Source: Mycolicibacterium nivoides (GTDB lineage: Bacteria; Actinomycetota; Actinomycetes; Mycobacteriales; Mycobacteriaceae). Taken from it: a stretch of 64,000 nt of DNA. The notes beneath the pieces were generated by a model. It saw nothing but the letters and a program-made list of their open reading frames with translations, did not search any database and was not told the DNA's origin. A program made the position numbers and the translations under genes. Below are positions 588 to 30,030 of this stretch, piece by piece. The number at the start of each line of letters is the position of its first letter. Positions within the stretch are counted from its first letter, which is position 1. The stretch covers positions 186,001-250,000 of the forward strand of contig NZ_CP034072.1 of assembly GCF_003855255.1 (NCBI RefSeq). Direction: 5' to 3'.

Positions 588-608
588 ATACTGTAAGTGT
601 TACAGTTG
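588..608. promoter_or_regulatory. Operator site 1 of the TTACNGTAA regulon
   Basis: ATACTGTAA, GTG, TTACAGTTG: two 9-bp half-sites 12 bp apart forming an ACTGTAA/TTACAGT inverted repeat. It ends 5 bp before the GTG start of the ALDH gene, so binding would block transcription start or the ribosome. Same architecture as eight other sites in the window; regulator inferred to be the TetR at 2232-2930. Confidence 0.7.
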
Positions 609-613
609 AGCGC

Positions 614-2149
614 GTGAGCGAAGTCGTGGACGAGGCCGTCACCAGTGTGGACATCGGGCGGCGGGCCGCCGGGCGGGCCGAGAAGCGCATGCTGATCGAC
701 GGTGCGCTGGTATCCGCGGTATCCGGTGCGGAATTCGGCAATCTCAGCCCGGCCACAGGCCTGGTTCTGGGGACCACCGCGGCCGCCGGTGCCGAGGACA
801 TGGATCGAGCGATCGGAGCGGCCCGGCGCGCGTTCGACGAAACCGACTGGAGCACCGATCGCGGATTGCGTCAGCGGGTACTGGCCCAACTGCAAGAGGC
901 CATCGAATCCGAAAAAGCCTACCTGCGTGAGGAATTGATCGCCGAGGTCGGTTGCCCGGCGATGACGACGGAGAATGCCCAGCTGGACTGGCCGCTGGCC
1001 GATGCGCTGCGATACCCGGCCCGGCTGATCGACGAGTTCGAATGGGAGCGCACGCTCGACGGCGGCGGGTTGTTCGGTGAGCGCAACGCCCGCACGGTGG
1101 TCAAGGAGGCGGTCGGTGTGGTCGCCGCGATCACCCCGTCGAACTTCCCGATCGAGGTGATCCTCAACAAGCTCGGGCCGGCGCTGGCAGCAGGCAACAC
1201 CGTGGTGCTCAAGCCCGATCCGAACACGCCGTGGAACGCCACCCGGCTGGGCCGGTTGATCGCCGAGCGTACCGATATGCCGCCCGGCGTGGTCAACGTC
1301 GTCCCGACGCCGTCGAATGAGGTTGCGGGATTTCTGGGCACCGATCCGCGTGTCGACATGGTGTCGTTCACCGGATCCACTGGCGTCGGCAGGCATTTGA
1401 TGCGAGTCGGTGCGGACACCATGAAGCGCACCTTCCTCGAACTCGGCGGCAAGTCGGCGATGATCGTGCTCGACGATGCCAAGCCCGGCCACATCATCCC
1501 CGGCGCGATCGGGGCGTGCGTGCACGCGGGGCAGGCGTGTGCGGCCAATACCCGGATGCTGGTGCATCGCAGCCTGTTCGACGAAGCAGTCGCAAATGTG
1601 ACCATGGCATTCGGTGCGGTGCCGGTGGGTGATCCCGCGTTGCCGACCACGCTGGTGGGCCCGCTGATCAGTGCGGCGCAGAAGCAACGCGTTCTCGATG
1701 CCATCGACGGCGCCCGTCGCGACGGCGCCGAGATCGTGGTCGGTGGCGGCGTACCGGACGGTTTGCCCGAGTATCTGACCGACGGGCACTTCGTCGCACC
1801 CACCGTCATCGTAGGGGCTGACCCGCGCTCGTCGATCGCGCAGGACGAGGTCTTCGGTCCGGTGCTGGTGATGATCCCGTTCGACGATGACGACGAGGCC
1901 GTGCGGATCGCCAACGACAGTGCGTTCGGCTTGGCCGGTGCGGTCGTGTCGGCGTCGTCCGAGCGCGCGATGGGGATCGCACGGCGGATAAGGACCGGGG
2001 CCATCGGCGTCAATGGCGGCATGTACTACGGTGCCGACGCGCCATTCGGTGGATACAAGAATAGCGGCGTCGGAAGGCAGTGCGGGATAGAGGGTTTCGC
2101 GCAGTACACCGAGACCAAGACCATCGGCTGGCGCCTGCCCCGGCAGTAG
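614..2149 (+). CDS. Aldehyde dehydrogenase (NAD(P)-dependent)
   Basis: Oxidises an aldehyde to the carboxylic acid with NAD(P). About 511 residues, normal for the ALDH superfamily. The cofactor-binding SNFPIEVILNK region, the catalytic Glu segment (LELGGK) and the nucleophilic Cys in GQACAAN are all present, and the C-terminal half ends with the usual NGGMYYGADAPFGGYKNSG motif. The GTG at 614 is chosen because it opens just after the operator; it has no clear ribosome site, so a leaderless mRNA or a later start at ATG 689 (before MLIDG, the usual ALDH N-terminus) is possible. First gene downstream of operator 1, so probably repressed by the local TetR. Fits oxidation of an aldehyde intermediate in the catabolic island. 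Confidence 0.9.
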   Translation: MSEVVDEAVTSVDIGRRAAGRAEKRMLIDGALVSAVSGAEFGNLSPATGLVLGTTAAAGAEDMDRAIGAARRAFDETDWSTDRGLRQRVLAQLQEAIESEKAYLREELIAEVGCPAMTTENAQLDWPLADALRYPARLIDEFEWERTLDGGGLFGERNARTVVKEAVGVVAAITPSNFPIEVILNKLGPALAAGNTVVLKPDPNTPWNATRLGRLIAERTDMPPGVVNVVPTPSNEVAGFLGTDPRVDMVSFTGSTGVGRHLMRVGADTMKRTFLELGGKSAMIVLDDAKPGHIIPGAIGACVHAGQACAANTRMLVHRSLFDEAVANVTMAFGAVPVGDPALPTTLVGPLISAAQKQRVLDAIDGARRDGAEIVVGGGVPDGLPEYLTDGHFVAPTVIVGADPRSSIAQDEVFGPVLVMIPFDDDDEAVRIANDSAFGLAGAVVSASSERAMGIARRIRTGAIGVNGGMYYGADAPFGGYKNSGVGRQCGIEGFAQYTETKTIGWRLPRQ

Positions 2150-2161
2150 CGTTGCCGTGCG

Positions 2162-2219
2162 CGAGCAGACACAAAACTGCCCCGATTCGTGCGAAAAGGG
2201 ACAGTTCTGTGTCTGCTCG
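2162..2219. terminator. Long imperfect palindrome between convergent genes (family A)
   Basis: Arms 2162-2183 and 2198-2219, 22 bp each, two mismatches, starting CGAGCAGAC and ending in a C/G run. It sits between the convergent ALDH and TetR ends, as expected for a bidirectional stem-loop terminator, but has no U-tract. A second copy with the same outer bases lies at 40127-40184. Confidence 0.6.
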
Positions 2220-2231
2220 GCGGGAGAAGCT

Positions 2232-2942: not shown

Positions 2943-4163
2943 CTAGCGGATCGGCTCGAATGTGACGGGTATGGCGGTGGGGGAGCGGAACGGCTGACCG
3001 AAGATGTGCGGATCGTCGTCGGTGACCAGCTTGAGGTTGCGCACCCGGCTCAGAAGGCTCTCCATCGCCACCCGGGTCTCCATCCGGGCCAGGTGCAACC
3101 CCATGCAGGTGTGCTCGCCGGCGGCAAACGTGATGTGCGGAACCCGCTTTCGGAAGATGTCGAACTCCTCGGGCCGTTCCCAGCGGCTCTCGTCGCGGTT
3201 GGCCGATCCCATGCACACATCGATCACCGCGCCGGCGGGCAGTGCCACGCCGTCGAGTTCGACGTCCTGGGTGGTCGAGCGTTGCACTGTGGTGAGCGGG
3301 GTTTCGTAGCGCAGCCCCTCCTCGATGGCCTGGCCGATCAGCTCGTGGTCGGCTTGCGTCGCGGCGAACTGCTCGGGGTGGGTGAGCAGCAGATAGATCA
3401 GGTTGCCCGAGGACCGGTAGGTGGTCTCCAGCCCGGCAGGCAGAAGCAGCCGCAGGAACGAGTAGATGGCCTCGTCGGTGAGCTTCTCTCCGTCGATCTC
3501 CGCGGTGACGAGATCGCCGATGATGTCGTCGGTGGGATGGGAGCGGCGCAGGTCGATCTGGCCGAGGAAGTAGTCCTTCAAGGCCGCGGATGCTTCAAAA
3601 GCGCGCTTGTACTTCACCGTGTAGCTGATCAGTTCGACGGCGCGCTGCCGGAACCAGGGCAGGTCTTCCTCGGGTAGGCCGAGAAGCTTGGAGATCACCC
3701 GGGTGGGAAACTCGAAGGTGAAGTCGCGCACCAGATCGGCGCTGCCGGATTCGATGAACTCGTCGACGAGCGCCTCGCAGATCGGGCGGACGACCTCGGG
3801 CTCCCAACGCTGCAACGAACGTGACTTGAAGGCGGCCGAGACCAGGTTGCGGTGGTCGCGGTGGGTCTTGCCCTCCATTGCCAGGATCGACGGACCGATG
3901 AAGAGCCCGATGGTGTTGTCATAGATCTTCGAGTTGAACGATTTACCGTCCCGGAAGACGGTGTTGACCGCATCGAAGGACACGGCGGCGAATTGATGTT
4001 CCGGCAGAAGCGATTCCGGTGTCTTCGACCAGTCCATGACCGAACCGCGGAACACGCCGTGCCTGGCACGGTGCCGCGCGAAGGTCGGGTAGGGGTCGCG
4101 CAGCAGGGTGGGGGTGTCGTCGACCGGCTCATCGACGGTCAGGTCCTGCACTTCACTACCCAC
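2943..4163 (-). CDS. Cytochrome P450
   Basis: 406 residues, the usual size for a soluble bacterial class I P450 that takes electrons from a ferredoxin and hydroxylates a hydrophobic substrate. Seen: I-helix LLPAGLETTY with the acid-alcohol pair (Glu in place of the commoner Asp), the K-helix ExxR in EGLRYETP, and the haem-binding FAAGEHTCMG with its Cys ligand. GTG start at 4163 is preceded by GAGGTGAG. No ferredoxin gene is adjacent. Operator 2 lies ~45 bp upstream and the TetR gene follows directly. Likely does an early oxidation of the island's substrate; which CYP family is not decided. Confidence 0.93.
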   Translation of the reverse strand: MGSEVQDLTVDEPVDDTPTLLRDPYPTFARHRARHGVFRGSVMDWSKTPESLLPEHQFAAVSFDAVNTVFRDGKSFNSKIYDNTIGLFIGPSILAMEGKTHRDHRNLVSAAFKSRSLQRWEPEVVRPICEALVDEFIESGSADLVRDFTFEFPTRVISKLLGLPEEDLPWFRQRAVELISYTVKYKRAFEASAALKDYFLGQIDLRRSHPTDDIIGDLVTAEIDGEKLTDEAIYSFLRLLLPAGLETTYRSSGNLIYLLLTHPEQFAATQADHELIGQAIEEGLRYETPLTTVQRSTTQDVELDGVALPAGAVIDVCMGSANRDESRWERPEEFDIFRKRVPHITFAAGEHTCMGLHLARMETRVAMESLLSRVRNLKLVTDDDPHIFGQPFRSPTAIPVTFEPIR

Positions 4164-4202: not shown

Positions 4203-4231
4203 CATATTACTGTAAATCTTACAGTAATATG
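4203..4231. promoter_or_regulatory. Operator site 2, perfect 29-bp palindrome
   Basis: Core 4207-4227 is TTACTGTAA, ATC, TTACAGTAA; the symmetry extends two more pairs outward on each side (13-3-13, no mismatch). It lies between the SDR stop (4254) and the P450 start (4163), so it should control the P450-TetR unit. It is the best match to the shared motif. Confidence 0.8.
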
Positions 4232-4253: not shown

Positions 4254-5039
4254 TCAGAGCGCGATCGGGGCGCCGTTGCTCATCGCGGCGATGAAGCCGC
4301 CGTCGACCTGGATGTCCTGGCCGTTGATCCAGCGCGCATCGGGGGAGGCCAGGAAGGCGATCAGGGGAACGATGTCCTCGACGGTGGCGTGCCGGCCCAC
4401 GGTCGCGCGCACCATGTCGAGCACCTCCTTGCCCATGGTCTGCTCGAAATCGGACAGGATGGGCGTCTGGACCGGGCCCGGGCTCACCGTGTTGAGCCGC
4501 ACCCCGTACTTGCTCCAGGCCGGCCCCGAGATCCGCTTGACGAACAGGATCGCGGCCTGCTTGGAGGTGGTGTAGACCGGGAAATCCGGATCCTGCCCGG
4601 TCTGCCACTGCGCCACCGCATCCCCGTCGGTGAGTTCGAGTAACCCGTCGAGGATGTCGATGCGCTGTTGCCAGCCCAGCGCCGCTGTCGACGCCACCGT
4701 GACGATCGAGCCGCCGTGGCGCAGCAGCGGCAGCATGCCTTCGGTCATCAGTCGCATGCCGAGATAGTTGACCTTGAGGACGTCGGCGGCCGGCGCGGTG
4801 CCCGGCACCCCCGCGACATGCGCGAGCATGTCCCAGCCGTCGCCGATCTCGCTCAGCAGGCGCGCGATGTCGGCCGCGTCCCGCAGGTCGCACGTGGCGT
4901 GCTCCGACGCCGGGGTGTCATTGGGGCGCACGTCGACGGCGAGCACATGGTCGCCCCGTTCGAAGAAGTGCGCCGCGGTGGCCGCTCCGATTCCGGATCC
5001 GGCTCCGACGACGACGATTCTGCGTGCGGTATCCGACAT
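4254..5039 (-). CDS. Short-chain dehydrogenase/reductase
   Basis: 261 residues, normal for a classical SDR. Cofactor motif VVVGAGSGIGAATA near the N-terminus, an acidic residue after beta-2 (AVDVRPND) that favours NAD(H), an active-site YTTSKQAA (YxxxK) segment and the NTVSPGPVQTPI region after it. The start is ATG 5039, preceded by GGAGGGTCGTCGC; a longer upstream frame is rejected. Likely interconverts an alcohol and a ketone made by the neighbouring P450. It reads away from the ALDH at 5200, and operators 3 and 4 lie in the shared spacer. Confidence 0.92.
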   Translation of the reverse strand: MSDTARRIVVVGAGSGIGAATAAHFFERGDHVLAVDVRPNDTPASEHATCDLRDAADIARLLSEIGDGWDMLAHVAGVPGTAPAADVLKVNYLGMRLMTEGMLPLLRHGGSIVTVASTAALGWQQRIDILDGLLELTDGDAVAQWQTGQDPDFPVYTTSKQAAILFVKRISGPAWSKYGVRLNTVSPGPVQTPILSDFEQTMGKEVLDMVRATVGRHATVEDIVPLIAFLASPDARWINGQDIQVDGGFIAAMSNGAPIAL

Positions 5040-5062: not shown

Positions 5063-5083
5063 CGACAGTAAGGATCACTGTAA
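5063..5083. promoter_or_regulatory. Operator site 3
   Basis: CGACAGTAA, GGA, TCACTGTAA: two half-sites of the shared motif in the SDR/ALDH divergent spacer, 24 bp upstream of the SDR start. Imperfect but with the same 9-3-9 layout. Confidence 0.6.
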
Positions 5084-5130: not shown

Positions 5131-5151
5131 CTACCGTTAGCCTTACCGGAG
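5131..5151. promoter_or_regulatory. Operator site 4 (weaker)
   Basis: CTACCGTTA, GCC, TTACCGGAG: degenerate match to the 9-3-9 motif, placed 48 bp before the ALDH start at 5200. With site 3 it would give each divergent promoter its own operator. Confidence 0.45.
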
Positions 5152-5199: not shown

Positions 5200-6687
5200 A
5201 TGAGCGCGATCGAGGAGCGTGCGGCAGTGCAGCCGCAGCGCGACGGTCTGGATGAGCTGCTGGCGGCCCAGCGCCGGTCGTTCATCGCCGATGGCCCGCC
5301 CGATGTCGCGCTGCGCCGCAACCGCATTGACCGGCTGCTCGCGATGGTGTTGGACAACTCCGAGGATTTCGTCGCCGCCACCGCGGCCGACTACGGGTCG
5401 CGCTCGCGCTCGGCGGCGTTCTTCGCCGAGATCCTGGGCATGCTCTCGGTCATCGAGCACACCAGGGCCCATGTGCCGCAGTGGATGCGCGCGACGAAGT
5501 TGATGCGGGCCGCCCGGTTCGCCGGGCTGCGTGCCGAGGTGGTGCCGAGCCCGCTCGGTGTCATCGGGATCATCGGGCCGTGGAACTTCCCGATCCAGTT
5601 GACGGTGCTGCCTGCGGCTGCGGCCTTCGCCGCGGGCAACCGGGTGATGATCAAGATGTCGGAGGTCACCCCGCGCACCGCCGAACTGATGGCGGCGACC
5701 GCGCCGAAGTATTTCGATCCGACCGAGTTGCGGGTCGTGACCGGCGGGCCCGATGTCGCCGCGGAGTTCGCCGGCCTACCGTTCGACCACCTGTTCTTCA
5801 CCGGTTCACCCTCGATCGGGGCGCTGGTGGCGCGCGCGGCCTCGGACAATCTGGTTCCGGTGACGCTGGAACTGGGCGGTAAGAACCCGGTGGTGGTGTC
5901 TCCCGGGGCTGACATCGAACGGGCTGCGAGTCGAATCGCCCAGGCGCGCATGGTCAATGGCGGTCAGGTGTGCGTGTGCCCGGACTATGTCTTCGTCCCG
6001 GAGGCGCAGGTGGACCGGTTCGTCGAGGTCGCGCGGAGAACGCTGAGCAGTCTGTTTCCCAGCATCATCGACAACGCCGACTATTGCTCCTCGGTGAACC
6101 AGGCCAACTTCGACCGGGTGGTCGGCCTGATCGCCGACGCCCGTGCTCACGGGGCGCGGATCGACTCCGTCGTTCCGGCGGGGGAGGTGCTGCCCGATCC
6201 GGGGTCGCGCAAGATCGCCCCGACCATCGTGCGTGACGTCGATGACCGGATGCGGATCGCGGGCGAGGAGGTATTCGGACCGGTGCTGGCGGTGCGCGGT
6301 TACTCCCGGCTCACCGAGGCTGTCGACCACATCAATGCCAACCCGTCGCCGTTGGTGGCCTACTGGTTCGGGCCCGACGATGCCGATTTCCGCCACTTTG
6401 TCAGCCATACCCGCAGTGGCGGGGTGGCCCGCAATGACTTTGCGGCGCACATGATCCCGTCCGAAGCTCCGTTCGGTGGCGTCGGACGCAGTGGGACCGG
6501 CGCCTACCACGGCAAGGCCGGTTTCGATGCGTTCAGCCACTACCGCACGGTGGTCGGCACGGACCTGCCGTTCAGCGTCACGGGCCAAGCTGCCCGGCCG
6601 TTCAGCGCGGCCATGCGGGTCAGTGCCGCACTCAGCCTGCGACGTGCCCGTAGCCGAACCGCGGCGCGGCTCAAGAAGTTTCGCTGA
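5200..6687 (+). CDS. Aldehyde dehydrogenase, coniferyl-aldehyde-dehydrogenase-like
   Basis: 495 residues. Seen: IIGPWNFPIQLTVLPAAAAF (cofactor binding), FTGSPSIGALVA, the catalytic Glu in LELGGKNPV, the Cys in NGGQVCVCPDYV, and an SEAPFGGVGRSGTG end. GPWNFP with a short N-terminus resembles the coniferyl/fatty aldehyde dehydrogenase branch (family 3-like) rather than the ALDH at 614, so the two enzymes probably act on different aldehydes. The ATG at 5200 follows GGCGAGGAGACGG; upstream in-frame sequence belongs to the divergent promoter. The 3' end overlaps the convergent acyl-CoA synthetase by 17 bp. Confidence 0.92.
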   Translation: MSAIEERAAVQPQRDGLDELLAAQRRSFIADGPPDVALRRNRIDRLLAMVLDNSEDFVAATAADYGSRSRSAAFFAEILGMLSVIEHTRAHVPQWMRATKLMRAARFAGLRAEVVPSPLGVIGIIGPWNFPIQLTVLPAAAAFAAGNRVMIKMSEVTPRTAELMAATAPKYFDPTELRVVTGGPDVAAEFAGLPFDHLFFTGSPSIGALVARAASDNLVPVTLELGGKNPVVVSPGADIERAASRIAQARMVNGGQVCVCPDYVFVPEAQVDRFVEVARRTLSSLFPSIIDNADYCSSVNQANFDRVVGLIADARAHGARIDSVVPAGEVLPDPGSRKIAPTIVRDVDDRMRIAGEEVFGPVLAVRGYSRLTEAVDHINANPSPLVAYWFGPDDADFRHFVSHTRSGGVARNDFAAHMIPSEAPFGGVGRSGTGAYHGKAGFDAFSHYRTVVGTDLPFSVTGQAARPFSAAMRVSAALSLRRARSRTAARLKKFR

Positions 6688-8338
6688 CCGCCTGCTCGCG
6701 AGCCCACCGGTAGTCGGCCTTGCCGGCCGGGCTGCGTTCGATGACCGGGCGGAACACCACGGCCTTGGGCAGCTTGTAGCGGGCGATCGATGATTCGGCG
6801 TGCCGGATGAGCTCGTCGGCCCCAATAGTGTTGTCGGCGAGCGCGTCCTCGCTCAACGCAACGATAGCCACTACTTCCTGCCCCCAGCGTTCACTGGGCC
6901 GGCCGGCCACCACAACGTCGCGCACTGCCGGATGCGAGGCGATCGCGGATTCGACCTCCTCGGCGAAGATCTTCTCGCCGCCGGAGTTGATGGTGACCGA
7001 GTCGCGACCGAGCAGCTCGATCGCCCCGCTGTCCAGGTGGCGCGCCCGGTCACCCGGTGTCGCATATCGGACGCCGTCGATGACCGGGAACGTGGCCGCG
7101 GTCTTGGCTGCGTCGCCCTTGTAGCCCAGCGGCACGAACCCGCGCTGCGCCAGCCATCCCAGTCCCTCATGACCGGCGGGGAGGACCGCGGTGAAATCCT
7201 CGGTCACCACACAGGTGTCGGGCCCGGCGTTGAACGTTCCGGTCGACACGGCACCGGGGGCCGACATGTGGCTCATCTGGGCACCGGTCTCGGATGACCC
7301 CACCCCGTCGACGACGATGAGGTTGGGCTTGGCGTCGATGAGTTGTTGCTTGACGTACGGGGTCAGCTGTGCTCCGCCGTTGGCCACGACGGACAGGGAG
7401 GACACATCCGCCGTGCCGTCTCGAAGGCCGGTCTTGATGGCATCGAGGAGCGGGCGCGCCATGGCGTCACCCACCACCGTGGCCACCAGCACCTGTTCGC
7501 GTTCGATGGTGCGCACCACGTCTTCGGCATCGAAACGGTCGACCACGCTGGGGAATACGATGGTCTGGCCTGTGGTCACGGCCGTCATCGCCCCCCATTG
7601 GGCGGCGCCGTGGATCAGCGGCGGCAGGATCAGCAGCCTGGTGCCCGGATTGTCGACCGCACGCCCGACGATCTCCTCGACCGACTGCGCTTTCTCGCCG
7701 GTCACCATGTTGCGTCCGCCGAAGGCGGTCATGAAGATGTCGTGCTGCCGCCACAGCACGCCCTTGGGCATGCCGGTGGTGCCTCCGGTATAGAGCACGT
7801 AGAGGTCGTCGGGGCTCGGTTCGACAGGAATGGCGGCGTCCGTCGAGGCGCTGACGATCGACTCGTAATCCACTGCGCCGTGGAGTAGTTCGTTGCCGGA
7901 ACCGTCGGCGATCTGGATCAGCACCCGCAGTGCGGGCAAATCGGGGAGTATCTCGGCCACGCGCGGTGCGAACGCGGCGTGGTACACGAGCGCGGATGCG
8001 CCGGAATCGGCCAGCAGATACTGCAATTCGTTCTTGACGTAGCGGTAGTTGACGTTGAACGGCGCGACGCGGGCCCGGAAGGCGCCGAGCAGGGATTCGA
8101 CGAACTCGGGACCGTTGTAGGCGTAGATGCCCAGCAGGTCCTGGCCTACCTCGTGGCCGGCCAGTTCACCGCGTTCGGTCTGTGCGCCCAGCCCGCGCGA
8201 ATGCAGGTACGCCGCCAGTCGATTCGAGCGGTCGACGATCTGGCGGTAGGTATAGCGCCGGTCGCCCTGGACGATCAGCGGGCGGTCTCCCACGGCGGCT
8301 GCGACGGCTTCGGCGACGGCCGGAACGGTGAACTGCAC
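6671..8338 (-). CDS. Acyl-CoA synthetase (FadD-type AMP-binding ligase)
   Basis: Activates a carboxylic acid to its CoA thioester via an acyl-adenylate. 555 residues. P-loop-like LYVLYTGGTTGMPKGVLW, the GVGSSETGAQM region, the hinge ELLGRDSVTINSGGEKI and the C-terminal PAGKADYRW lysine are all present. The GTG at 8338 is chosen because AGGAGA lies just upstream and the protein then begins at VQFTVPAV; a longer reading runs into the preceding gene. Third gene of the operon Rieske oxygenase, isochorismatase-like protein, FadD, governed by operator 5. Probably feeds the pathway's acid product into beta-oxidation. Confidence 0.92.
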   Translation of the reverse strand: MQFTVPAVAEAVAAAVGDRPLIVQGDRRYTYRQIVDRSNRLAAYLHSRGLGAQTERGELAGHEVGQDLLGIYAYNGPEFVESLLGAFRARVAPFNVNYRYVKNELQYLLADSGASALVYHAAFAPRVAEILPDLPALRVLIQIADGSGNELLHGAVDYESIVSASTDAAIPVEPSPDDLYVLYTGGTTGMPKGVLWRQHDIFMTAFGGRNMVTGEKAQSVEEIVGRAVDNPGTRLLILPPLIHGAAQWGAMTAVTTGQTIVFPSVVDRFDAEDVVRTIEREQVLVATVVGDAMARPLLDAIKTGLRDGTADVSSLSVVANGGAQLTPYVKQQLIDAKPNLIVVDGVGSSETGAQMSHMSAPGAVSTGTFNAGPDTCVVTEDFTAVLPAGHEGLGWLAQRGFVPLGYKGDAAKTAATFPVIDGVRYATPGDRARHLDSGAIELLGRDSVTINSGGEKIFAEEVESAIASHPAVRDVVVAGRPSERWGQEVVAIVALSEDALADNTIGADELIRHAESSIARYKLPKAVVFRPVIERSPAGKADYRWAREQAVSETS

Positions 8339-8370: not shown

Positions 8371-8988
8371 TCAGTGCTGCCAGGCGTGCAGCAGGTCCTC
8401 GGTTGTGGTCACGGTGGCCAGTAGGGACAGCGTGTTGTCGATGACCGCGTCGGCATAGGCCGTCGGAATTCCGGCGACCGCGTCGCGGGGCAGCACCACC
8501 CGGTACCCGGCGTTGACCGCGTCCATCACCAGATTGACGATCGCGATGTTCACCGAGACTCCCACGGCCACGATGGTGCGCACCCCGAGGTTGCGCAGGA
8601 TCGCGTCCAGGTCGGTGCCGCCCATCGGACCCAGGCCGTGCCAACGGGCCAGCACGAGGTCGTCCGGTTCCGGTCCGAATTCGGGAAGCAACGTGGCGCC
8701 CGGGGTGCCTGGCAGAATGCCCACGTCGTTACGGCCGATGGCGAAGATCTTGGCGTTGTGGTTGGAACCCAGCCCATCCGGGCGTCGCTGCACCAGGCAG
8801 TGCACCACCCGGGCCGAGGCGGCCCGCGCTGCCGGCAGCAGTCGGGTGATGTTGGGTAGCGCCTCCCGGCGGGCCTCGTCGGCCAGTGCGGCCAGCCCGG
8901 CGTCGGGACCGACCACTGCGCCTTGGCATTCCTGGGTGATGATCGCGGTGTGCTCGGGGGCGACCAGTTCGGTCAGGTCGATCTTCAT
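8371..8988 (-). CDS. Isochorismatase-superfamily protein with substituted catalytic residues
   Basis: 205 residues with the Rossmann-like fold signature of the isochorismatase/cysteine hydrolase superfamily: N-terminal TAIITQECQG, central RWHGLGPMGGTDLDAIL, and GVRTIVAVGVSVNIAIV. In active members the triad is Asp, Lys and Cys; by hand alignment the positions here are Glu20, Arg115 and Ser135 (VGVSVN instead of GVCTN). The protein may therefore be a non-classical hydrolase or a binding protein. Its stop overlaps the upstream Rieske gene start by ATGA, and FadD follows after 32 bp, so it belongs to that operon. Function unknown beyond family. Confidence 0.8.
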   Translation of the reverse strand: MKIDLTELVAPEHTAIITQECQGAVVGPDAGLAALADEARREALPNITRLLPAARAASARVVHCLVQRRPDGLGSNHNAKIFAIGRNDVGILPGTPGATLLPEFGPEPDDLVLARWHGLGPMGGTDLDAILRNLGVRTIVAVGVSVNIAIVNLVMDAVNAGYRVVLPRDAVAGIPTAYADAVIDNTLSLLATVTTTEDLLHAWQH

Positions 8989-10001: not shown

Positions 10002-10049
10002 GGCCAGCTTCCTCCCGTTTCACTGCTCTCGCAATACGTACGGAAGACA

Positions 10050-10070
10050 TTACAGTAGCTATTACTGCAG
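10050..10070. promoter_or_regulatory. Operator site 5
   Basis: TTACAGTAG, CTA, TTACTGCAG. Good 9-3-9 match, 49 bp upstream of the Rieske oxygenase start and in the spacer shared with the SnoaL-like gene. Confidence 0.65.
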
Positions 10071-10115
10071 AGAAAGGGCGCACGGTTGGAATCGGCCGAC
10101 GACCAACTGAGGCTC

Positions 10116-10136
10116 TTACCGTATAGTTCGCCGCAG
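10116..10136. promoter_or_regulatory. Operator site 6 (one strong half)
   Basis: TTACCGTAT, AGT, TCGCCGCAG. The left half is close to the motif and the right half is weak. It is 20 bp before the TTG start of the SnoaL-like gene. Confidence 0.45.
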
Positions 10137-11049: not shown

Positions 11050-11070
11050 CTACTGAAAGCATTACCGTAA
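11050..11070. promoter_or_regulatory. Operator site 7
   Basis: CTACTGAAA, GCA, TTACCGTAA. It lies between the LLM pseudogene (start 11016, minus strand) and the dehydrogenase gene at 11107 (plus strand), 36 bp from the latter. Confidence 0.6.
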
Positions 11071-20972: not shown

Positions 20973-20979
20973 CGTCGAC

Positions 20980-23199: not shown

Positions 23200-23216
23200 A
23201 CCCGGCGGAGAACACC

Positions 23217-23729
23217 ATGGATATCGAACTGTGGGTCAACAGCCGCAGCTACGCGGTACGGACCGATGTGCGACGCACGCTGCTGGACCTGCTGCGCGAG
23301 CGGCTGCATCTGACCGGCACAAAGAAGGGGTGCGACCACGGGCTGTGCGGCGCGTGCACGGTCCACCTCGACGGCGAGCGTGTGCTGAGCTGCCTGACGC
23401 TGGCCGCGTCGGTCAGTGGCCGGTCGGTGCAGACCATCGAGGGCATTGCTGCCGGGGACGACCTCGCCCCGATTCAACAGGCGTTCATCGACCGTGACGC
23501 CTTCCAATGCGGCTACTGCACTTCGGGGCAGATCTGCTCGGCCCAGGCCATGCTGGCCGAACACGCCCGCGGGGACCTGTCCGCGGAATCTTTCGAACAG
23601 ACGGACGTGTCCGTGGCGCCGGACCTGACCTCTCGCGAGATCCGTGAACGAATGGCGGGCAACATCTGCCGCTGCGGCGCCTACGCCAACATCGTCACGG
23701 CGATCCGTGACGCGAGCGGGGAACGATGA
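23217..23729 (+). CDS. [2Fe-2S] subunit of the molybdenum aldehyde oxidoreductase
   Basis: 170 residues. N-terminal plant-type ferredoxin domain with CDHGLCGACTVHLDG and a further Cys in LSCLTL; C-terminal helical domain with QCGYCTSGQ and CRCGAYANI. That is the complete Cys set for both clusters. ATG 23217 with GGCGGAG upstream is preferred; TTG 23196 overlaps the previous stop and would add seven residues. Unlike E. coli PaoA there is no Tat signal, so the complex is predicted cytoplasmic. The last four bases overlap the FAD subunit start (ATGA). Confidence 0.9.
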   Translation: MDIELWVNSRSYAVRTDVRRTLLDLLRERLHLTGTKKGCDHGLCGACTVHLDGERVLSCLTLAASVSGRSVQTIEGIAAGDDLAPIQQAFIDRDAFQCGYCTSGQICSAQAMLAEHARGDLSAESFEQTDVSVAPDLTSREIRERMAGNICRCGAYANIVTAIRDASGER

Positions 23730-24844
23730 AGCCCTTCGCGTTCGCTCACGCCGCCACCGTCGCCGATGCGGTAGCCGCGGCGGCCGCCGGCGCACGGTAC
23801 TACGCCGGTGGGACCAACCTGCTCGACCTGATGAAAACCGGTGTCGAGTTGCCGGATTCACTCATCGACATTGGCCGGCTCGACCTGCGCTCGATCACCC
23901 AAACCGCATCCGGCGGTGTCCTGATCGAATCCGGGGTGAGCAACAGCGCGCTGGCCAATCACCCGCTGATCCGTCGCCGGTATCCGGTGCTGTCTCAGGC
24001 GATCTTGTCCGGGGCCACCACCCAGTTGCGCAACATGGCCACGGTCGGCGGAAACCTGCTGCAGCGCACCCGTTGCCCGTACTTCATGGACACCGCGTTC
24101 GAGTACTGCAACAAGCGGCTACCCGGTTCCGGCTGCGCGGCGCGCGACGGATTCCACCGTGAGCATGCCGTCTTCGGCGCCGACCGCAGCTGCATCGCGG
24201 TGCATCCGTCCGATATGGCCGTGGCGTTGGCCATCCTCGATGCGGTGGTGCACGTAGTGGGCCCGCACGGTCAGCGCACCATCGCTATCGCCGAGTTCTT
24301 CGCCTTGCCGGGGGCGCACCCGGAGCGCGACAACACGCTGGGCGCCGCCGAGCTGATCACCGGCGTCGAGCTGCCTGCGCCGGCGTTCGGTGCAGGCAGC
24401 TGGTATCTCAAGGTGCGCGACCGGCACAGTTACGCGTTCGCATTGGTGTCGGTGGCGGCAGGGTTGGACATCGACGATGGGGTCATCCGCTCGGCCGCAG
24501 TGGCACTTGGCGGAGTGGCGGCCAAACCCTGGCGGGTCGCAGCGGCCGAATGCAGCCTGATCGGGCAGCCCGCGGTTATCGAAACCTACCGTCGGGCCGC
24601 CGGTCTCATGATGGCGGGTGCGGAGCCGCTGAGCGAGAACGGATTCAAGGTCGAGCTCGGCCGCAAGAGTGTGATCCGCGCTCTGACAATCGCCGCCTCA
24701 CGGCATGATCAGAGTGCGCGACACCGGCTCGGCGACGGCCTGGCGGCTGAAGATGCCGTGCTGCAGGGCGACCAGCAGGGCGTTGCGGGTCTCCTCGGGG
24801 GAGATGAGCTCATCGAACCCGAGGTGACCCGCCGACCGGAATGA
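23726..24844 (+). CDS. FAD / [4Fe-4S] subunit of the molybdenum aldehyde oxidoreductase, extended C-terminus
   Basis: 372 residues. FAD-binding YAGGTNLLDLMKTGV and ATVGGNLLQRTRC are typical. Cys117, Cys128, Cys137 and Cys156 (in TRCPYF, EYCNKR, GSGCAAR, DRSCIA) match the four-Cys insertion that holds an extra [4Fe-4S] cluster in PaoB, so this is the PaoB type, not plain CoxM. The normal family end should be near RKSVIRALTIAA (~residue 326). Here the frame runs on ~45 residues, reading 147 bp antisense into the carboxyltransferase gene. Either the stop was lost or the tail is real; sequencing error is a third option. Confidence 0.87.
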   Translation: MKPFAFAHAATVADAVAAAAAGARYYAGGTNLLDLMKTGVELPDSLIDIGRLDLRSITQTASGGVLIESGVSNSALANHPLIRRRYPVLSQAILSGATTQLRNMATVGGNLLQRTRCPYFMDTAFEYCNKRLPGSGCAARDGFHREHAVFGADRSCIAVHPSDMAVALAILDAVVHVVGPHGQRTIAIAEFFALPGAHPERDNTLGAAELITGVELPAPAFGAGSWYLKVRDRHSYAFALVSVAAGLDIDDGVIRSAAVALGGVAAKPWRVAAAECSLIGQPAVIETYRRAAGLMMAGAEPLSENGFKVELGRKSVIRALTIAASRHDQSARHRLGDGLAAEDAVLQGDQQGVAGLLGGDELIEPEVTRRPE

Positions 24845-26194
24845 CGCCTCGAGCTCCATGCGTTTGAGCACCTCGGCGTAATCCTCGCCGGCATGGGTCG
24901 CGGCGCTGAGTGCCGCCGCGCCCATCGCGCCCATGGTGGCACCGGGATAGGCGAACGTCGCCACTTGATCGTCAAAACCCAACAGAGACATCACCATCGA
25001 GCCGAATCCGAAGGCCTTGCGCAGCGTCACGTGCAGCTTGAGCGTCGTCGCGGCGGTCTGGGCGGCGAACATCCGCGCGCCGCTGCGTAGCACGCCGGTG
25101 CGCTCGGAATGGCTACCCGGCAGCATCCCCGGATTGTCGGCGAGAAACACGATAGGCAGATGGAACGAATCGGCCACGGTGATGAAATGTGCTGCCTTGT
25201 CGGCAGCGTCGGCGTCGATCGAACCGGCGAGCACCTGCGGCTGATTGGCCACCACGGCGACGGGATAGCCGCCGAGATGGGCCAGCGCGCAGATGATCGC
25301 CCGGCCGAACTTGGGCTGCACCTCGAACCAGTCGGGGCGATCGAAGATCTCGTCGAGGACCGCGCGCATGTCGTAGATCTGGCGGTTGTCGCGGGACACG
25401 ATGTCGAGGATTTCCGGGGTGAGCCGTGGTTCGGCCGTGTCATCGGCGAGTCGGGTCGGGGGATACGACCATGCGCTCGACGGGAAGTAGGACAGGTAGC
25501 GCCGGATGTCGTCGATGACCGTCTCGTCGTCCTCGGCGTAGTTGTGAATCACCCCGCTCGGTAGCGCCACACCCGGCCCGCCGAGGTCTTCCTTCGAAAT
25601 GTCCTCGCCGGTCGACTCTTTCACCACCGGCGGCCCGGCGGTGAAGATGGCCCCCTGGCGGCTCATGATCGTGAAGTCACACACCGGGGCCACCAGGGCG
25701 CCGTGGCCGGCCGACGGGCCGAGGATCGCCGAAACGGTGGGCACCTTTCCGGAACACTTCGCCTGCGCGATCAGATCAGTGGGGGTTCTGCCGTAGTGCT
25801 CCCCGCTCGGGCGAAAACCCGCGCCCTCCAACAGCATCACGAGCGGAATCTTGTTGCGCAGCGCCAGCTCGGCGAGCCGGTACCGCTTGGCGTTGCCGCC
25901 CGGGCCGATGCTGCCGGCCAGGGTGGTGAAATCCTCGGCACCCACCATCACCGGCGTGCCGTCGATGCGGCCGGCACCTGCGACCAGGCCGTCGGAGGCG
26001 ATGTCACCGCCGACCAGGGTGCCGAATTCCTGGAAGGTGTCGGGATCGAGCAGGCGGGCGATCCGGGCGCGGGCGTCGAGCTTGCCCTTGCCGTGGTGCT
26101 TGGCCAGCCGTTCGGCTCCGCCCATGCCGTGCGCACGTTCACGTCGGTTGGCGAGATCCTCAAGTGTCTCTTTCCACTCCGGGTCGTTCGTCAT
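24698..26194 (-). CDS. Acyl-CoA carboxylase carboxyltransferase subunit
   Basis: 498 residues of the PccB/AccD crotonase-fold family, which moves a carboxyl group from carboxybiotin to an acyl-CoA. N-domain KHHGKGKLDARARIARLLD, the acyl-CoA oxyanion GPSAGHGALVAP, and C-domain biotin-side GPGG/AYPGATMGAMGA are visible. ATG 26194 has AAGGACGG upstream. No biotin-carboxylase or BCCP gene is adjacent, so it must share one elsewhere in the genome. Operator 8 lies 60 bp upstream, putting it in the island regulon. May carboxylate a branched or beta-methyl acyl-CoA, as in terpenoid degradation, but that is inference. Confidence 0.9.
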   Translation of the reverse strand: MTNDPEWKETLEDLANRRERAHGMGGAERLAKHHGKGKLDARARIARLLDPDTFQEFGTLVGGDIASDGLVAGAGRIDGTPVMVGAEDFTTLAGSIGPGGNAKRYRLAELALRNKIPLVMLLEGAGFRPSGEHYGRTPTDLIAQAKCSGKVPTVSAILGPSAGHGALVAPVCDFTIMSRQGAIFTAGPPVVKESTGEDISKEDLGGPGVALPSGVIHNYAEDDETVIDDIRRYLSYFPSSAWSYPPTRLADDTAEPRLTPEILDIVSRDNRQIYDMRAVLDEIFDRPDWFEVQPKFGRAIICALAHLGGYPVAVVANQPQVLAGSIDADAADKAAHFITVADSFHLPIVFLADNPGMLPGSHSERTGVLRSGARMFAAQTAATTLKLHVTLRKAFGFGSMVMSLLGFDDQVATFAYPGATMGAMGAAALSAATHAGEDYAEVLKRMELEASFRSAGHLGFDELISPEETRNALLVALQHGIFSRQAVAEPVSRTLIMP

Positions 26195-26253
26195 GCCGCC
26201 GTCCTTCTTGTCGAGCGTTCGCGCCTGGGTGCACAAGCCTACCGCCGTTGACC

Positions 26254-26274
26254 ATACTGAATTGCTTACTGTAG
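26254..26274. promoter_or_regulatory. Operator site 8
   Basis: ATACTGAAT, TGC, TTACTGTAG, in the divergent spacer of the carboxyltransferase (start 26194) and the LLM oxidoreductase-P450 unit (start 26335). Confidence 0.6.
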
Positions 26275-26334: not shown

Positions 26335-27390
26335 ATGAGTGACCCCGTTCCCCGCGCTGTCAAAGTCGACCGCGGCATCCCCAGCCGGCTGGCCGAAGTT
26401 CCGGACATCGCCCGCGAGCTGGAAGCTCACGGCTACCACGGATGCTGGACCGGCGAGATCAACCACGACCCGTTCCTGCCCCTGGCGATCGCGGCCGAGC
26501 ACACCGAGCGGATCCAGATCGGCACCAGCATCGCGGTCGCCTTCGCGCGCAACCCGATGACCACGGCCCAGCTGGGCTGGGATCTGCAGACCTACTCGGG
26601 CGGACGTTTCATCCTCGGACTGGGTACCCAGATCCAGCCGCACGTCGAGAAGCGATTCAGCATGCCGTGGAGTCACCCGGCGCGCCGCATGCGCGAGTAC
26701 ATCGAAGCGCTGCATGCGATTTGGGGCTGCTGGCGCGACGGAACCAAGCTGAGGTTCGAGGGTGAGTTCTACACCCACAAGATCATGACGCCGATGTTCA
26801 CCCCGGAACCGTCGGCGCTGCCGTTCCCCAAGGTGTTCCTGGCCGCGGTGGGTGAACTGATGACCGAAGTGTGCGGTGAGGTGGCCGACGGACTGCTGGC
26901 CCACGCGTTCACCACCCGCCGCTATCTGGACGAGGTGACCACGGTCGCGCTGCAGCGTGGAATGGACCGCAGCGGGCGTGATCGCGCCGACTTCGAGTTG
27001 TCCTGCCCCGTCTTCGTGGTCACCGGCGCCGACGAACAGGAGATGGCCGCGGCGTCGGTCGCGACCCGCAAACAACTCGCGTTCTACGGCTCGACACCGG
27101 CCTACCGCAAAGTCCTGGAGCTGCACGGCTGGGGTGATCTGCACACCGAACTGCACCGGCTGTCGCTGGACGGCCAGTGGGACGCGATGGGCGATCTGAT
27201 CGACGACGAAGTGCTCGGCACCTTCGCCGTCGTCGCGCCGATCCCCGAATTGGCCGCGACATTGCGGCGCCGCTGCGACGGTGTCATCGACCGCGTGCTT
27301 CCAGGTTTTCCCGCCGCTGTGTCCCCGGAAACCGTGAACGCGGTGCTGCAGGAGTTTCGCGAATGCCCGCCAGTGAGGAGCAACGTATGA
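26335..27390 (+). CDS. LLM-class F420-dependent oxidoreductase
   Basis: 351 residues; luciferase-like barrel with VPDIARELEAHGYHGCWTGEI, GTSIAVAFARNPMTTAQLGWDL and YSGGRFILGLGTQIQPHVEKRF, a pattern shared by many mycobacterial F420-linked oxidoreductases. ATG 26335 is preceded by AAAGGAA. Its stop overlaps the P450 start (ATGA). Paired with a P450 and opposite a carboxyltransferase across operator 8, so likely a redox step of the same catabolic route; substrate unknown. Confidence 0.88.
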   Translation: MSDPVPRAVKVDRGIPSRLAEVPDIARELEAHGYHGCWTGEINHDPFLPLAIAAEHTERIQIGTSIAVAFARNPMTTAQLGWDLQTYSGGRFILGLGTQIQPHVEKRFSMPWSHPARRMREYIEALHAIWGCWRDGTKLRFEGEFYTHKIMTPMFTPEPSALPFPKVFLAAVGELMTEVCGEVADGLLAHAFTTRRYLDEVTTVALQRGMDRSGRDRADFELSCPVFVVTGADEQEMAAASVATRKQLAFYGSTPAYRKVLELHGWGDLHTELHRLSLDGQWDAMGDLIDDEVLGTFAVVAPIPELAATLRRRCDGVIDRVLPGFPAAVSPETVNAVLQEFRECPPVRSNV

Positions 27391-28622
27391 CCGTCCGCAC
27401 AATCGACGATGTCGCCAAGATGTTCGCCAGCCCGGCGGCGTACGCCGACGAGGTGACACTTCACGCGGACCTGACCCACCTCCGGGCCAACGCACCGGTG
27501 TCCTGGGTCGAGGTGCCCGACTATGCCCCCTTCTGGGCGATCACCAAGCATGCGGACATCATGGAGATCGAACGTGCCAACGACATCTTCACCAACTCGC
27601 CGCGCCCGGTCCTGGTCACCCGCGAGGGCGACGAGCAGCAGGCCGCGATCGGCATCCGGACGTTGATCCACACCGACGATCCGGTGCACCGCGATCTGCG
27701 GGCCATCGGAGCCAACTGGTTTCGGCCAAAGGCCATGCGCGCGTTGAAGGATCGCGCCGATGAACTGGCCAAGCGGTTCGTGGACAGAATGGTCGACGAG
27801 GGGCCGGAATGCGATTTCGTACAGCAGGTCGCCGTGAACTATCCGCTGTACATGATCATGACGCTGCTCGGTGTGCCCGAGTCCGACTTTGCGTTCATGC
27901 TCAAGCTCACCCAGGAGCTGTTCGGCAGCGACGACGACGAGTTCAAGCGCGGCACCAGCATGGAAGAGCAGGGCATGGCGCTGCTCGAGATGTTCCAGTA
28001 CTTCACCGAACTGACCGCCTCGCGTCGGGCGAATCCGACCGACGACTTGGCGTCGACGATCGCCAACGCCACACTGGACGGGGAGCCGCTGTCCGATATC
28101 GACACAGTTTCCTACTACGCGATCATCGCCGCTGCCGGCCACGACACCAGTAGCGCCAGCATTTCGGGCGGCATGCACGCGCTGCTGCAGAATCCCGACC
28201 AACTGGCCCGGCTGCAGAACGACATGAGCCTGATGCCGCTGGCGGTCGAGGAGATGGTCCGGTGGACGACACCGGTCAAGGAGTTCATGCGTACCGCGCA
28301 ACAGGACTACGAGATTCGCGGTGTACGCATCGCCAAGGGCGAATCGGTACTGCTGTCCTATGTCTCGGGCAACCGCGACGAGGACGTCTTCGTCGATCCG
28401 TTCCGCTTCGACGTCGGACGGGATCCCAACAAACACATCGCGTTCGGCTACGGTGTGCATTTCTGCCTCGGTGCCGCACTGGCCCGGCTGGAGATCAACA
28501 GCTTCTTCACCGAGCTGTTGCCGCGGCTGCGCTCCGCGGAGCTCGCCGGCGAACCGCAACACATGGCCACCACGTTCGTCGGAGGTCTCAAGCACCTGCC
28601 GGTGCGGTACTCGCTGCGCTAG
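27387..28622 (+). CDS. Cytochrome P450
   Basis: 411 residues. I-helix AAAGHDTSSAS, ExxR in EEMVRW, and haem-binding FGYGVHFCLGAALARLE with the Cys ligand. The motif wording is like the mycobacterial CYP families that oxidise sterol side chains or terpenes (such as CYP125/CYP142 and relatives), but no assignment to one of them is made. The start ATG 27387 lies in an ATGA overlap with the LLM gene and has GTGAGGAGCAAC before it. The gene ends just before a 27-bp-stem palindrome. No ferredoxin gene is adjacent. Confidence 0.93.
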   Translation: MTVRTIDDVAKMFASPAAYADEVTLHADLTHLRANAPVSWVEVPDYAPFWAITKHADIMEIERANDIFTNSPRPVLVTREGDEQQAAIGIRTLIHTDDPVHRDLRAIGANWFRPKAMRALKDRADELAKRFVDRMVDEGPECDFVQQVAVNYPLYMIMTLLGVPESDFAFMLKLTQELFGSDDDEFKRGTSMEEQGMALLEMFQYFTELTASRRANPTDDLASTIANATLDGEPLSDIDTVSYYAIIAAAGHDTSSASISGGMHALLQNPDQLARLQNDMSLMPLAVEEMVRWTTPVKEFMRTAQQDYEIRGVRIAKGESVLLSYVSGNRDEDVFVDPFRFDVGRDPNKHIAFGYGVHFCLGAALARLEINSFFTELLPRLRSAELAGEPQHMATTFVGGLKHLPVRYSLR

Positions 28623-28628
28623 CCCCGG

Positions 28629-28686
28629 CGAAACAGTAGTCAGGGCTGCTATCCCTTCTGGGGTAGCAGCCCTGACTACTGTTTCG
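28629..28686. terminator. Perfect long stem-loop between convergent genes
   Basis: Arms 28629-28651 and 28664-28686 are perfectly complementary over 23 bp and extend four more pairs inward (one wobble) to a TTCT tetraloop. It lies between the convergent P450 and amidohydrolase stops. No U-tract is present on either side. Best read as a bidirectional terminator or mRNA 3'-end stabiliser. Confidence 0.65.
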
Positions 28687-28698
28687 AGACGGAGTTCC

Positions 28699-29985
28699 CT
28701 ACTCGGAACCCGAATTGCCTCGCGCCGCGGCATGAAGCGCATCGCCGCGGCTGCCCTGCTCGTGATGGCTCAGCGCCTGGATCGAAACATCATGACCCTC
28801 AGCGGCTTTACGGAGCGCGCCGACGGTCGCCTGCTCCCGCGAGATGTGCGTGAACGGGTCGAACGAGTACCAGCGCATGGCGTTCTCGTGCGTCATCTTG
28901 TTGATCTCGTCGTCGGGCACGTTGTTCTCGGTCAGCACATCCCACAGCTCCTCGGGGGCGCCCGGCCACATCGAGTCGCTGTGCGGGTAATCGGCCTCCC
29001 AGCTGATGTTGTCGATGCCGATCTTGTCGCGCAGCGCGACGCCGACCGGATCGGAGATAAAGCAGGTCAGGAAGTGCTCACGGAACACCTCGCTGGGCAG
29101 CTTCCCGCCGAAGTTCTGGTGCGTCCAGGTCGAGTGCATCTCGTAGGTGCGGTCGACGCGTTCCAGGAAATACGGGATCCAGCCCGTACCGCCCTCGGAC
29201 AACCCGATCTTGAGATCCGGGTAATCCTTGATGGGCTTGGACCACAACAGATCCGCGGCGGCCTGCACGATGTTCATCGGCTGCAGCGTGATCATCACGT
29301 CCAGCGGCGCGTCGGGTGCGGTGATGGCGAGCTTGCCCGAGGATCCGATGTGCACGTTGAGCACGGTGTTGGTGTCGCACAACGCCTTCCACAGTGGAGT
29401 CCAGTAGTCGTCGTGGAAGCTGGGGTAACCCATCGCGGCCGGGTTCTCGGTGAACGTCAGGGCGTGCACGCCCTTCTTCGAAACCCGGCGGACCTCGGCG
29501 GCGCACGCCTCGGCATCCCAGATGACCGGGAGCGCCATCGGAATGAAGCGGGCCGGGTAAGCGCCGCACCATTCGTCGATGTGCCAGTCGTTGTAGGCCT
29601 GGACCAGGGCCAGGGAGAACTCCGGGTCCTCGGTGGCGAACAGCCGGCCGGCGAAACCGGGGAAGGACGGGAAACAGATCGAGCCGAGGATGCCGCCGGC
29701 GTTCATGTCCTTGACGCGCTCGTCGACGTCGTAGCAGCCCTTGCGGATCTCGTCGAGGCCCTGGGGTTCCAGGCCGTACTCCTCCTTCGGGCGGCCGGCC
29801 ACCGCATTCAGCGCGACGTTGGGGATGACGATGTCACGGAACTGCCAGGTGTCGCTGCCGTCGGGATTGTGCACCAGGCGCGGTGCCTCATCGGCGTACT
29901 TCTTCGGAAGGTGATTCTTGAACATGTCAGGTGGTTCGACGATGTGATCGTCCACGCTGATCAGGATCATGTCGTCTTTGTTCAC
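28699..29985 (-). CDS. Amidohydrolase-family (TIM-barrel) metal-dependent enzyme
   Basis: 428 residues of the amidohydrolase-2 family (decarboxylases and hydrolases of the ACMSD type). The start ILISVDDHIVEPPDMF carries the DxH-type metal motif (DDH), VLNVHIGSSG a further His, and WEADYPHSDSMWPG the conserved C-terminal Asp region. GTG 29985 has GGAG nine bases upstream. Operator 9 is 25 bp upstream, so it is a separate unit of the island regulon. Could cleave a C-C or C-N bond in a late ring-degradation intermediate; actual reaction unknown. Confidence 0.85.
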   Translation of the reverse strand: MNKDDMILISVDDHIVEPPDMFKNHLPKKYADEAPRLVHNPDGSDTWQFRDIVIPNVALNAVAGRPKEEYGLEPQGLDEIRKGCYDVDERVKDMNAGGILGSICFPSFPGFAGRLFATEDPEFSLALVQAYNDWHIDEWCGAYPARFIPMALPVIWDAEACAAEVRRVSKKGVHALTFTENPAAMGYPSFHDDYWTPLWKALCDTNTVLNVHIGSSGKLAITAPDAPLDVMITLQPMNIVQAAADLLWSKPIKDYPDLKIGLSEGGTGWIPYFLERVDRTYEMHSTWTHQNFGGKLPSEVFREHFLTCFISDPVGVALRDKIGIDNISWEADYPHSDSMWPGAPEELWDVLTENNVPDDEINKMTHENAMRWYSFDPFTHISREQATVGALRKAAEGHDVSIQALSHHEQGSRGDALHAAARGNSGSE

Positions 29986-30009
29986 GAACGCGCTCCATTC
30001 ACGACGGCC

Positions 30010-30030
30010 TTACCGTATGGACGACAGTTT
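30010..30030. promoter_or_regulatory. Operator site 9
   Basis: TTACCGTAT, GGA, CGACAGTTT, directly upstream of the amidohydrolase start. It is the last copy in the window; none is found beyond this point, which sets the right limit of the regulon. Confidence 0.55.

Follow-up and report, generated by a model that had tools for sequence, protein, structure and literature searches.

A conserved 12-bp-phased palindrome marks a putative TetR-controlled catabolic regulon in Mycolicibacterium nivoides

In this study, we analysed a 64,000-nt stretch of the genome of Mycolicibacterium nivoides (contig NZ_CP034072.1, genome positions 186001-250000; hereafter the window) and found that a 21-bp palindrome recurs before the genes of a large catabolic cluster, is conserved in related genomes and accompanies the gene of a TetR-type protein, TetR-B, that lies just outside the window. 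It is quite likely that these sites are the operators of one TetR-type repressor system for this CoA-dependent cluster, in which TetR-B would be the conserved and autoregulated repressor, a paralogue, TetR-A, would act on the same operator, and an effector would bring about release. The system belongs to a known kind, the TetR-controlled catabolic regulons, and no earlier description of its operator or regulon was found in the literature searched, most subscription papers being outside its reach. From sequence alone, a candidate regulator and an operator can be named, together with about a dozen target promoters found again in several genera.

Results

The operator and its frequency

The preliminary description of this window had proposed nine sites, at 588, 4207, 5063, 5131, 10050, 10116, 11050, 26254 and 30010, each with two half-sites 12 bp apart. 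All nine sequences are present at these coordinates, and the spacing stands for eight of them; the remaining one, 10116, is the right half of a pair, 10104+10116, which scores 15.6 bits against 6.9 bits for 10116+10128. At the same position, genome G141 carries TTACTGAATGGCTTACGGTAG (23.9 bits). The palindrome common to the sites is nTACTGTAA-N3-TTACAGTAn (consensus over related genomes, both strands counted), and the consensus of the conserved sites, built from 38/58 distinct sites with near-duplicates removed by hand, is nTACTGTAAnnnTTACAGTAn. Measured against TTACNGTAA-N3-TTACNGTAA, the nine sites have 0-5 mismatches (4207, 0; 11050, 2; 588, 5063 and 10050, 3 each; 5131 and 26254, 4 each; 10116 and 30010, 5 each). 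When the 16 defined positions are compared, eight places in the window, namely seven of these sites and 10038, have at most 4 mismatches, whereas 20 simulated sequences gave an expectation of 0.15. The core TACNGTA-N5-TACNGTA, with at most 2 mismatches, gave nine matches in the window against 0.05 expected and a maximum of 1 in 100 shuffles; they start at 589, 4208, 5064, 5132, 10039, 10051, 11051, 26255 and 30011, and correspond to eight of the nine sites and the pair at 10038. This pair overlaps 10050, giving three boxes in a 12-bp register. A third box at exactly 12 bp was seen at 14 of 510 site ends; each of the other offsets between 10 and 31 gave 0-3. The weight matrix was trained on eight sites (seven of the nine, and one at genome 184356) on both strands. 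A sigma-70 scan, which is uninformative for mycobacterial promoters, returned no promoter and one terminator (1.1 and 5.0 in shuffles).

Conservation and placement

Conservation was examined in eight genomes of the same genus whose TetR-A is 86-91% identical to that of the window. Seven of the nine window sites reach at least 12 bits in all eight relatives, 5131 does so in seven (exception G119) and 10104/10116 in six (exceptions G020 and G135). Over 11 of the 13 mapped sites (10050 replacing 10038, with 167094 and 10104 omitted), identity was 96.6% in the 14 core columns, 81.1% in the spacer and 71.3% in the 40-bp flanks. All 21 bp of the site at 26254 are the same in the eight relatives, in surroundings that are 79-85% identical, and 167094 was found in three of the eight, some of the fetched stretches having no match. 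The main doubt of the preliminary description, that the motif might be equally common inside genes genome-wide, is answered better by this core conservation than by genome counts, because loose genome-wide matching is noisy. One relative, G049, alone of the eight has a further operator-like site listed (L079:11690-11710; 26.5 bits).

The sites had also been said to lie in promoters and never inside a gene. This holds with the starts that we chose, since each operator-bearing gene of the window has a usable start codon 23-80 bp past its operator. It does not hold for the longest open reading frames (ORFs) of a simple picker, within which fall 6 of the 13 sites of at least 15 bits in a 134-kb region, at 34-371 bp from the far 5' end of the ORF, and 2 of the 5 distant sites of at least 15 bits. 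On these putative start codons the sites are taken as promoter sites, and distances of 23-80 bp would fit repression.

Extent of the regulon

The regulon is larger than the 30 kb at first proposed. To the left of the window, the weight matrix detected further operators at genome 184356 (30.4 bits), 171090 (20.3 bits), 167094 (19.0 bits) and 173790 (17.3 bits). The regulon begins 19 kb outside the window on that side and covers about 49 kb; two unlinked P450 promoters belong to it as well. A sequence-only genome-wide model, which scored 123 first-look candidates and was not an exhaustive scan, returned ten distinct places with E-values of 0.06-4.8, of which seven are in the cluster region and three are distant. 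Two P450 genes, whose products share 65% identity, each have a distant site ahead of the start, 6811689 at about 27 bp and 2475068 at about 64 bp. A P450 64-89% identical (80, 78 and 89% when the closer of these two is taken) also follows a distant-type site in three relatives, which were chosen because such a site had already been seen there. The P450 at 2475k gave no match in the PDB at an E-value of 1e-80. A third distant site, at 2683465 (L025:9965-9985; 25.7 bits), precedes a DUF2510-AIM24 gene of no evident catabolic role, at 61-67 bp from a plausible start codon. The genome scan with a weight matrix that the preliminary description had proposed added sites in the cluster and before the distant P450 genes. 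With up to 3 mismatches allowed, 12 places were counted genome-wide, compared with 8 for a reversed control.

That one operator family marks one catabolic regulon was borne out, except that the interval from 14800 to 24844, inside the span first claimed, has no operator of at least 12 bits in the matrix scan. Histidine kinase, cupin and CoxL/S/M-type genes lie in this part of the cluster (window 17953-24844), without operators. In the five genus loci that cover the interval (G082, G101, G117, G034 and G107; the G028 stretch stops short of it and is outside the comparison), the kinase, cupin and CoxL proteins are all without a match, and the distance from 11050 to 26254 is 15.2 kb here versus 6.7-10.2 kb in the eight relatives. 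For these two reasons the genes look like a lineage-specific insertion.

TetR-B as the probable regulator

TetR-B (genome 170121-170888) is a paralogue of TetR-A, 53% identical to it and encoded about 15 kb left of the window. Both exceed the gathering scores of TetR_N (24) and TetR_C_1 (21), with 40.7 and 24.9 bits for TetR-A and 44.3 and 43.5 bits for TetR-B. The recognition helix, VGVTSIYWYF, is the same in all 41 aligned A and B sequences, and because of this identity both proteins probably read the same operator. In a tree, an A-like group (n=13) and a B-like group (n=28) were separated at the midpoint root with 100/99 support, with long branches flagged; two copies assigned to B by best hit cluster with the A-like group instead. 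The organism is close to Mycolicibacterium septicum, whose type strain has a TetR-A sharing 99% identity with that of the window, and a TetR-A relative with 74% identity is named from M. smegmatis.

With TetR-A as query at an E-value of at most 1e-40, 117 of 148 genus genomes gave a match, most at about 50-54% identity, which is the level of TetR-B. The motif with at most 2 mismatches occurs in 103 of these 117 genomes versus 2 of the 31 without a match (Fisher 5.5e-18), and the reversed motif in 24 of 117 and 10 of 31. Among the best 80 of 381 relatives, typed as A or B by alignment score, 46 of 50 TetR-B-type genes have a site of at least 16 bits within 400 bp upstream, as against 1 of 1000 shuffles; TetR-B thus has an operator at its own gene. 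Relatives of TetR-B are found in 8 of the 31 genera of the family, its own counted. Eight other-genus loci, fetched from the 15 genomes with a match, contain cluster genes, TetR-B and 3-11 sites of at least 16 bits, with none in three shuffles each. In plasmids, no relative of TetR-B above 41% identity was seen among the matches listed.

Alternative regulators and explanations

The preliminary description had assigned the sites to the TetR encoded at 2232, that is, TetR-A. In its favour, the TetR-A gene belongs to the operator-bearing unit that the strongest site precedes, and the protein has a helix-turn-helix of the same type as TetR-B, with the same recognition helix. That TetR-A alone regulates all sites is nevertheless quite unlikely. 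Genomes G082, G101, G028 and G117 have one TetR-A/B match each, of TetR-B type, and keep the operators and many of the enzymes, as do the eight other-genus loci, whose copies group with TetR-B; in addition, the sites upstream of their own genes belong to TetR-B-type copies. TetR-A is not the best single candidate because those four genomes keep the cluster without it, and the main regulator is probably TetR-B, with TetR-A as a sister copy. It is very unlikely that another local regulator binds the motif, be it a GntR-FCD protein (genome 167017-167934) or a third TetR, TetR3 (window 14800-15408): both are within the cluster, and the longest GntR ORF contains one site towards its 5' end, but at an E-value of 1e-8 GntR is unmatched in G101 and matched by short fragments only in G082, TetR3 is unmatched in G101 and G117, and the sites are kept. 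Of the four regulators, TetR-B alone is present in all 12 loci tested at this threshold, and in G101 it is the single one within the 60 kb. The short GntR matches of G082 (L200:2002-2168) suggest a remnant gene; operators persist there.

Likewise, the chance is slim that the motif corresponds to the "motif X" described for Mycobacterium sp. VKM Ac-1817D, which is tied to the Rv0767c orthologue (PMC6593523), or to the motif of another known mycobacterial TetR. The idea came from an aldehyde dehydrogenase of the window that resembles Rv0768, and the motif X set has P450s, dehydrogenases and two further TetR genes (PMC6593523). However, the best match to Rv0768 is encoded elsewhere (3776134; 946 bits, over the cut-off), the TetR beside this Rv0768-type gene does not align with TetR-A (E 3.6), and its 20-kb locus has no site above 8 bits, its promoter carrying GGACATGTGTCC; we therefore rejected motif X. 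The cluster has no regulator orthologous to Rv0767c beside Rv0768, Rv0767c sites are reported to be depleted of TAA and TTA (PMC10312376), and the consensi of KstR2, BkaR and MftR differ from the operator. The GGACATGTGTCC palindrome between the Rv0768-type gene and the adjoining TetR gene (L101:9770-9795) is a candidate for the letters of motif X.

Chance or sequence composition is hardly conceivable as the source of the sites. The genome count at up to 3 mismatches, so near to its control, speaks for it, but six of those 12 places lie within one 13-kb stretch (184356-197070), and both the excess of core matches in the window and the higher identity of core over flanks speak against it. Some observations do weigh against a single system centred on TetR-B. 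The same genome count and a best single-site E-value of only 0.06 make isolated matches elsewhere weak evidence, and chance may explain two of the distant matches, 2726488 (17.9 bits) and 4729169 (12.0 bits). Because related genomes are non-independent samples, the strength of the association is overstated by the Fisher value; 14 of the 117 TetR-bearing genomes have no site at 2 mismatches or fewer, and 2 of the 31 TetR-less genomes have one. Four of the 50 TetR-B-type genes have no upstream site of at least 16 bits. None of 30 TetR-A-type genes has a site directly upstream, so TetR-A gives no autoregulation signal of its own; this fits its place as second gene of an operon, because it follows P450a, whose promoter has the best operator. 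It is also conceivable that a regulator encoded at another genomic locus shares this distribution.

Discussion

Proposed mechanism

In the repressor system with TetR-B at its centre, TetR dimers would, without substrate, sit on two TACNGTA boxes 12 bp apart near the start codons and prevent transcription. Release would come when the TetR-like C-terminal pocket takes up a pathway intermediate, either a polycyclic acid or the CoA ester of one. TetR-B would be the conserved, autoregulated regulator; TetR-A, its paralogue retained in some species, would bind this operator too. A structural model of TetR-A (mean predicted local distance difference test score 76.6, from 8 sequences), to be read at the level of fold only, has as Foldseek neighbours TetR proteins, including some with tetracyclines, a TetR-derived repressor and ActR; TetR(D) and ActR are at ranks 2 and 6. 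The TetR-type tetracycline repressors and ActR let go of DNA on binding polycyclic ligands. They differ from the protein studied here in being only 20-25% identical, and their ligands are tetracyclines and actinorhodin. Either a polycyclic acid or the corresponding CoA ester would make a reasonable inducer. More tentatively, and with rather less than even likelihood, the cluster may be a polycyclic terpenoid, perhaps resin-acid, regulon of several Mycobacteriaceae genera, in part of which two TetR paralogues with identical helices and diverged ligand pockets would compete or heterodimerise on the 12-bp-phased operator, two metabolites or pathway stages being sensed at the same promoters.

Pathway and putative substrate

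The cluster encodes an SCP2-type thiolase, two CoA ligases, enoyl-CoA hydratases and a thiolase, as well as oxidative enzymes, including a KshA-type Rieske oxygenase, P450s, a luciferase-like monooxygenase (LLM) and a Baeyer-Villiger monooxygenase (BVMO) nearest to phenylacetone and steroid monooxygenases. Given the Rieske oxygenase, P450s, BVMO, SCP2-type thiolase, CoA ligases and a DitZ-like amidohydrolase, this enzyme set suggests CoA-dependent breakdown of a polycyclic isoprenoid, for example a diterpenoid or steroid-like acid. The dit cluster of Pseudomonas and Paraburkholderia resembles the present one in that DitZ is the best PDB match of the amidohydrolase. The dit cluster has a CoA ligase, the ring-hydroxylating dioxygenase DitA and the extradiol enzyme DitC. 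Here, if the KshA-type Rieske protein is set aside, neither a DitA-like ring dioxygenase nor an extradiol dioxygenase was recognised in Pfam/NCBIfam scans, which covered part of the ORFs and included no dit sequence as query. The dit system degrades resin acids (PMC13063091, PMC10710418), and its genes include a P450, a dehydrogenase and a sterol-carrier-like protein (PMC13063091).

Strains of Mycobacterium, Gordonia and Rhodococcus are named as users of resin acids (PMC6891630), and no actinobacterial gene cluster for resin acids was met with in the consulted parts of the resin-acid literature (PMC13063091, PMC10710418, PMC6891630). If the substrate is a diterpenoid, the cluster would offer a gene basis for this use by such strains. 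DitZ-like proteins (50% identity) are also found in CoA-type clusters of Massilia and Sphingomonas plasmids; in the Sphingomonas case, AtuA acyclic-terpene genes lie about 12 kb from the DitZ-like gene, which is suggestive only.

Relation to known regulons

Many mycobacterial TetR regulators are still without known targets. This is in line with PMC4482099. KstR and KstR2, which act on cholesterol genes in mycobacteria, are like the present system in TetR-type control of a large catabolic cluster, with one palindrome at several divergent promoters and short gaps. The KstR2 operator, AnCAAGnnCTTGnT, is 14 bp long and 22-82 bp from the start in 5 of 6 distances given (PMC3068626), whereas the operator here has a length of 21 bp and two TACNGTA boxes 12 bp apart, and is accompanied by a different TetR pair; its consensus is not that of KstR2. 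The KstR palindrome is also 14 bp (PMC3068626) and was compared by length. Of the initial view that the motif is neither KstR nor KstR2, the KstR2 part is upheld by differing consensi; for KstR, what was seen is a difference in length. BkaR (Rv2506) is likewise an autoregulated TetR with a palindrome in its own and target promoters, but differs in its GTTA(N)T(N4)A(N)TAAC core and in governing 10 genes in M. smegmatis, with branched-chain keto-acid genes (PMC3920632). The MftR consensus also differs from the operator (PMC8728441). The literal TTACAGTAA was not found in connection with a mycobacterial TetR operator in the literature searched.

Genes and operators of the window

Operator 1 (588-608; ATACTGTAAGTGTTACAGTTG, 28.9 bits; core 100% identical and present in 8/8 relatives) lies upstream of aldehyde dehydrogenase 1 (ALDH1; 647-2149, plus strand), which scores 608 bits with TIGR04284, under the cut-off of 775; its longest ORF begins at 554, and GTG 647 or ATG 689 is the likelier start. 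On the minus strand, TetR-A (2232-2930; PF00440 and PF02909) is the second gene of a unit with the P450 P450a (2943-4163), for which all NCBIfam P450 matches are below cut-off and the best of the PDB P450s scores 192 bits. Operator 2 (4207-4227; 0 mismatches; 8/8 relatives), the top match of the genome-wide model, is 43 bp before the P450a GTG at 4163. A divergent promoter follows, with operator 3 (5063-5083; 23.9 bits; 8/8 relatives) 23 bp from ATG 5039 of the short-chain dehydrogenase SDR1 (4254-5039, minus strand; PF13561, 107 bits), and operator 4 (5131-5151; 19.4 bits; at least 12 bits in 7/8 relatives) on the side of ALDH2 (5200-6687, plus strand; PF00171, 272 bits), the likely start of which is ATG 5200, the longest ORF beginning at 4768.

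The minus strand then carries the acyl-CoA synthetase FadD2 (6671-8338; NF005863, 721 bits against a cut-off of 543, from ORF residue 103), whose start is approximate, the longest ORF running from 8644; an isochorismatase-fold hydrolase (8371-8988; PF00857, 119 bits); and the Rieske oxygenase with a KshA-type C domain (8985-10001; PF19298, 99.9 bits; PF00355, 61.3 bits; best PDB match KshA 4qdc, 110 bits). Upstream of this Rieske unit is operator 5 (10038-10070), with three boxes (pairs 10038 and 10050; 18.0 and 23.4 bits; both in 8/8 relatives), and operator 6 (10104-10124; 15.6 bits; 6/8 relatives), formerly placed at 10116, is on the side of a SnoaL-like protein (10156-10590, plus strand; PF13577, 91.6 bits). 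Operator 7 (11050-11070; 28.0 bits; 8/8 relatives) precedes a plus-strand unit of SDR2, a 3beta-hydroxysteroid dehydrogenase/epimerase-type dehydrogenase (11107-12126; PF01370, 107 bits; PF01073, 61.9 bits; ATG 11107, longest ORF from 11080), the BVMO (longest ORF 12033-13739; PDB phenylacetone monooxygenase 515 bits, steroid monooxygenase 487 bits) and an alpha/beta-hydrolase-like protein (longest ORF 13552-14817; PF12697, 22.5 bits, under the cut-off of 26.3). The overlap of the BVMO and SDR2 ORFs suggests a later BVMO start. TetR3, which follows, is present in some relatives only and is not tied to operators.

Beyond the operator-free interval, an acyl-CoA carboxylase carboxyltransferase (24698-26194, minus strand; PF01039, 307 bits; ATG 26194 likely, longest ORF to 26311), with no PDB match at an E-value of 1e-80, shares a divergent promoter containing operator 8 (26254-26274; 25.1 bits) with the luciferase-like monooxygenase LLM2 (26335-27390, plus strand; PF00296, 219 bits). 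The P450 P450b (longest ORF 27177-28622, plus strand, real start probably later; PF00067, 95.5 bits) comes next, and then the DitZ-like amidohydrolase (28699-29985, minus strand; PF04909, 114 bits; PDB 8uyr DitZ, 375 bits over residues 2-414). Operator 9 (30010-30030), 24 bp before its GTG 29985, is the weakest of the window (13.6 bits) and scores 12.4-22.2 bits in the eight relatives. CstA and an ATP-dependent DNA ligase flank the cluster (window 30214-34158), and CstA is also at the edge of the fetched cluster in G082, G034 and G107. In M. tuberculosis, ligB and cstA are presumably adjacent, without this cluster. Further on, positions 54656-62371 of the window form a single ORF of 2571 codons.

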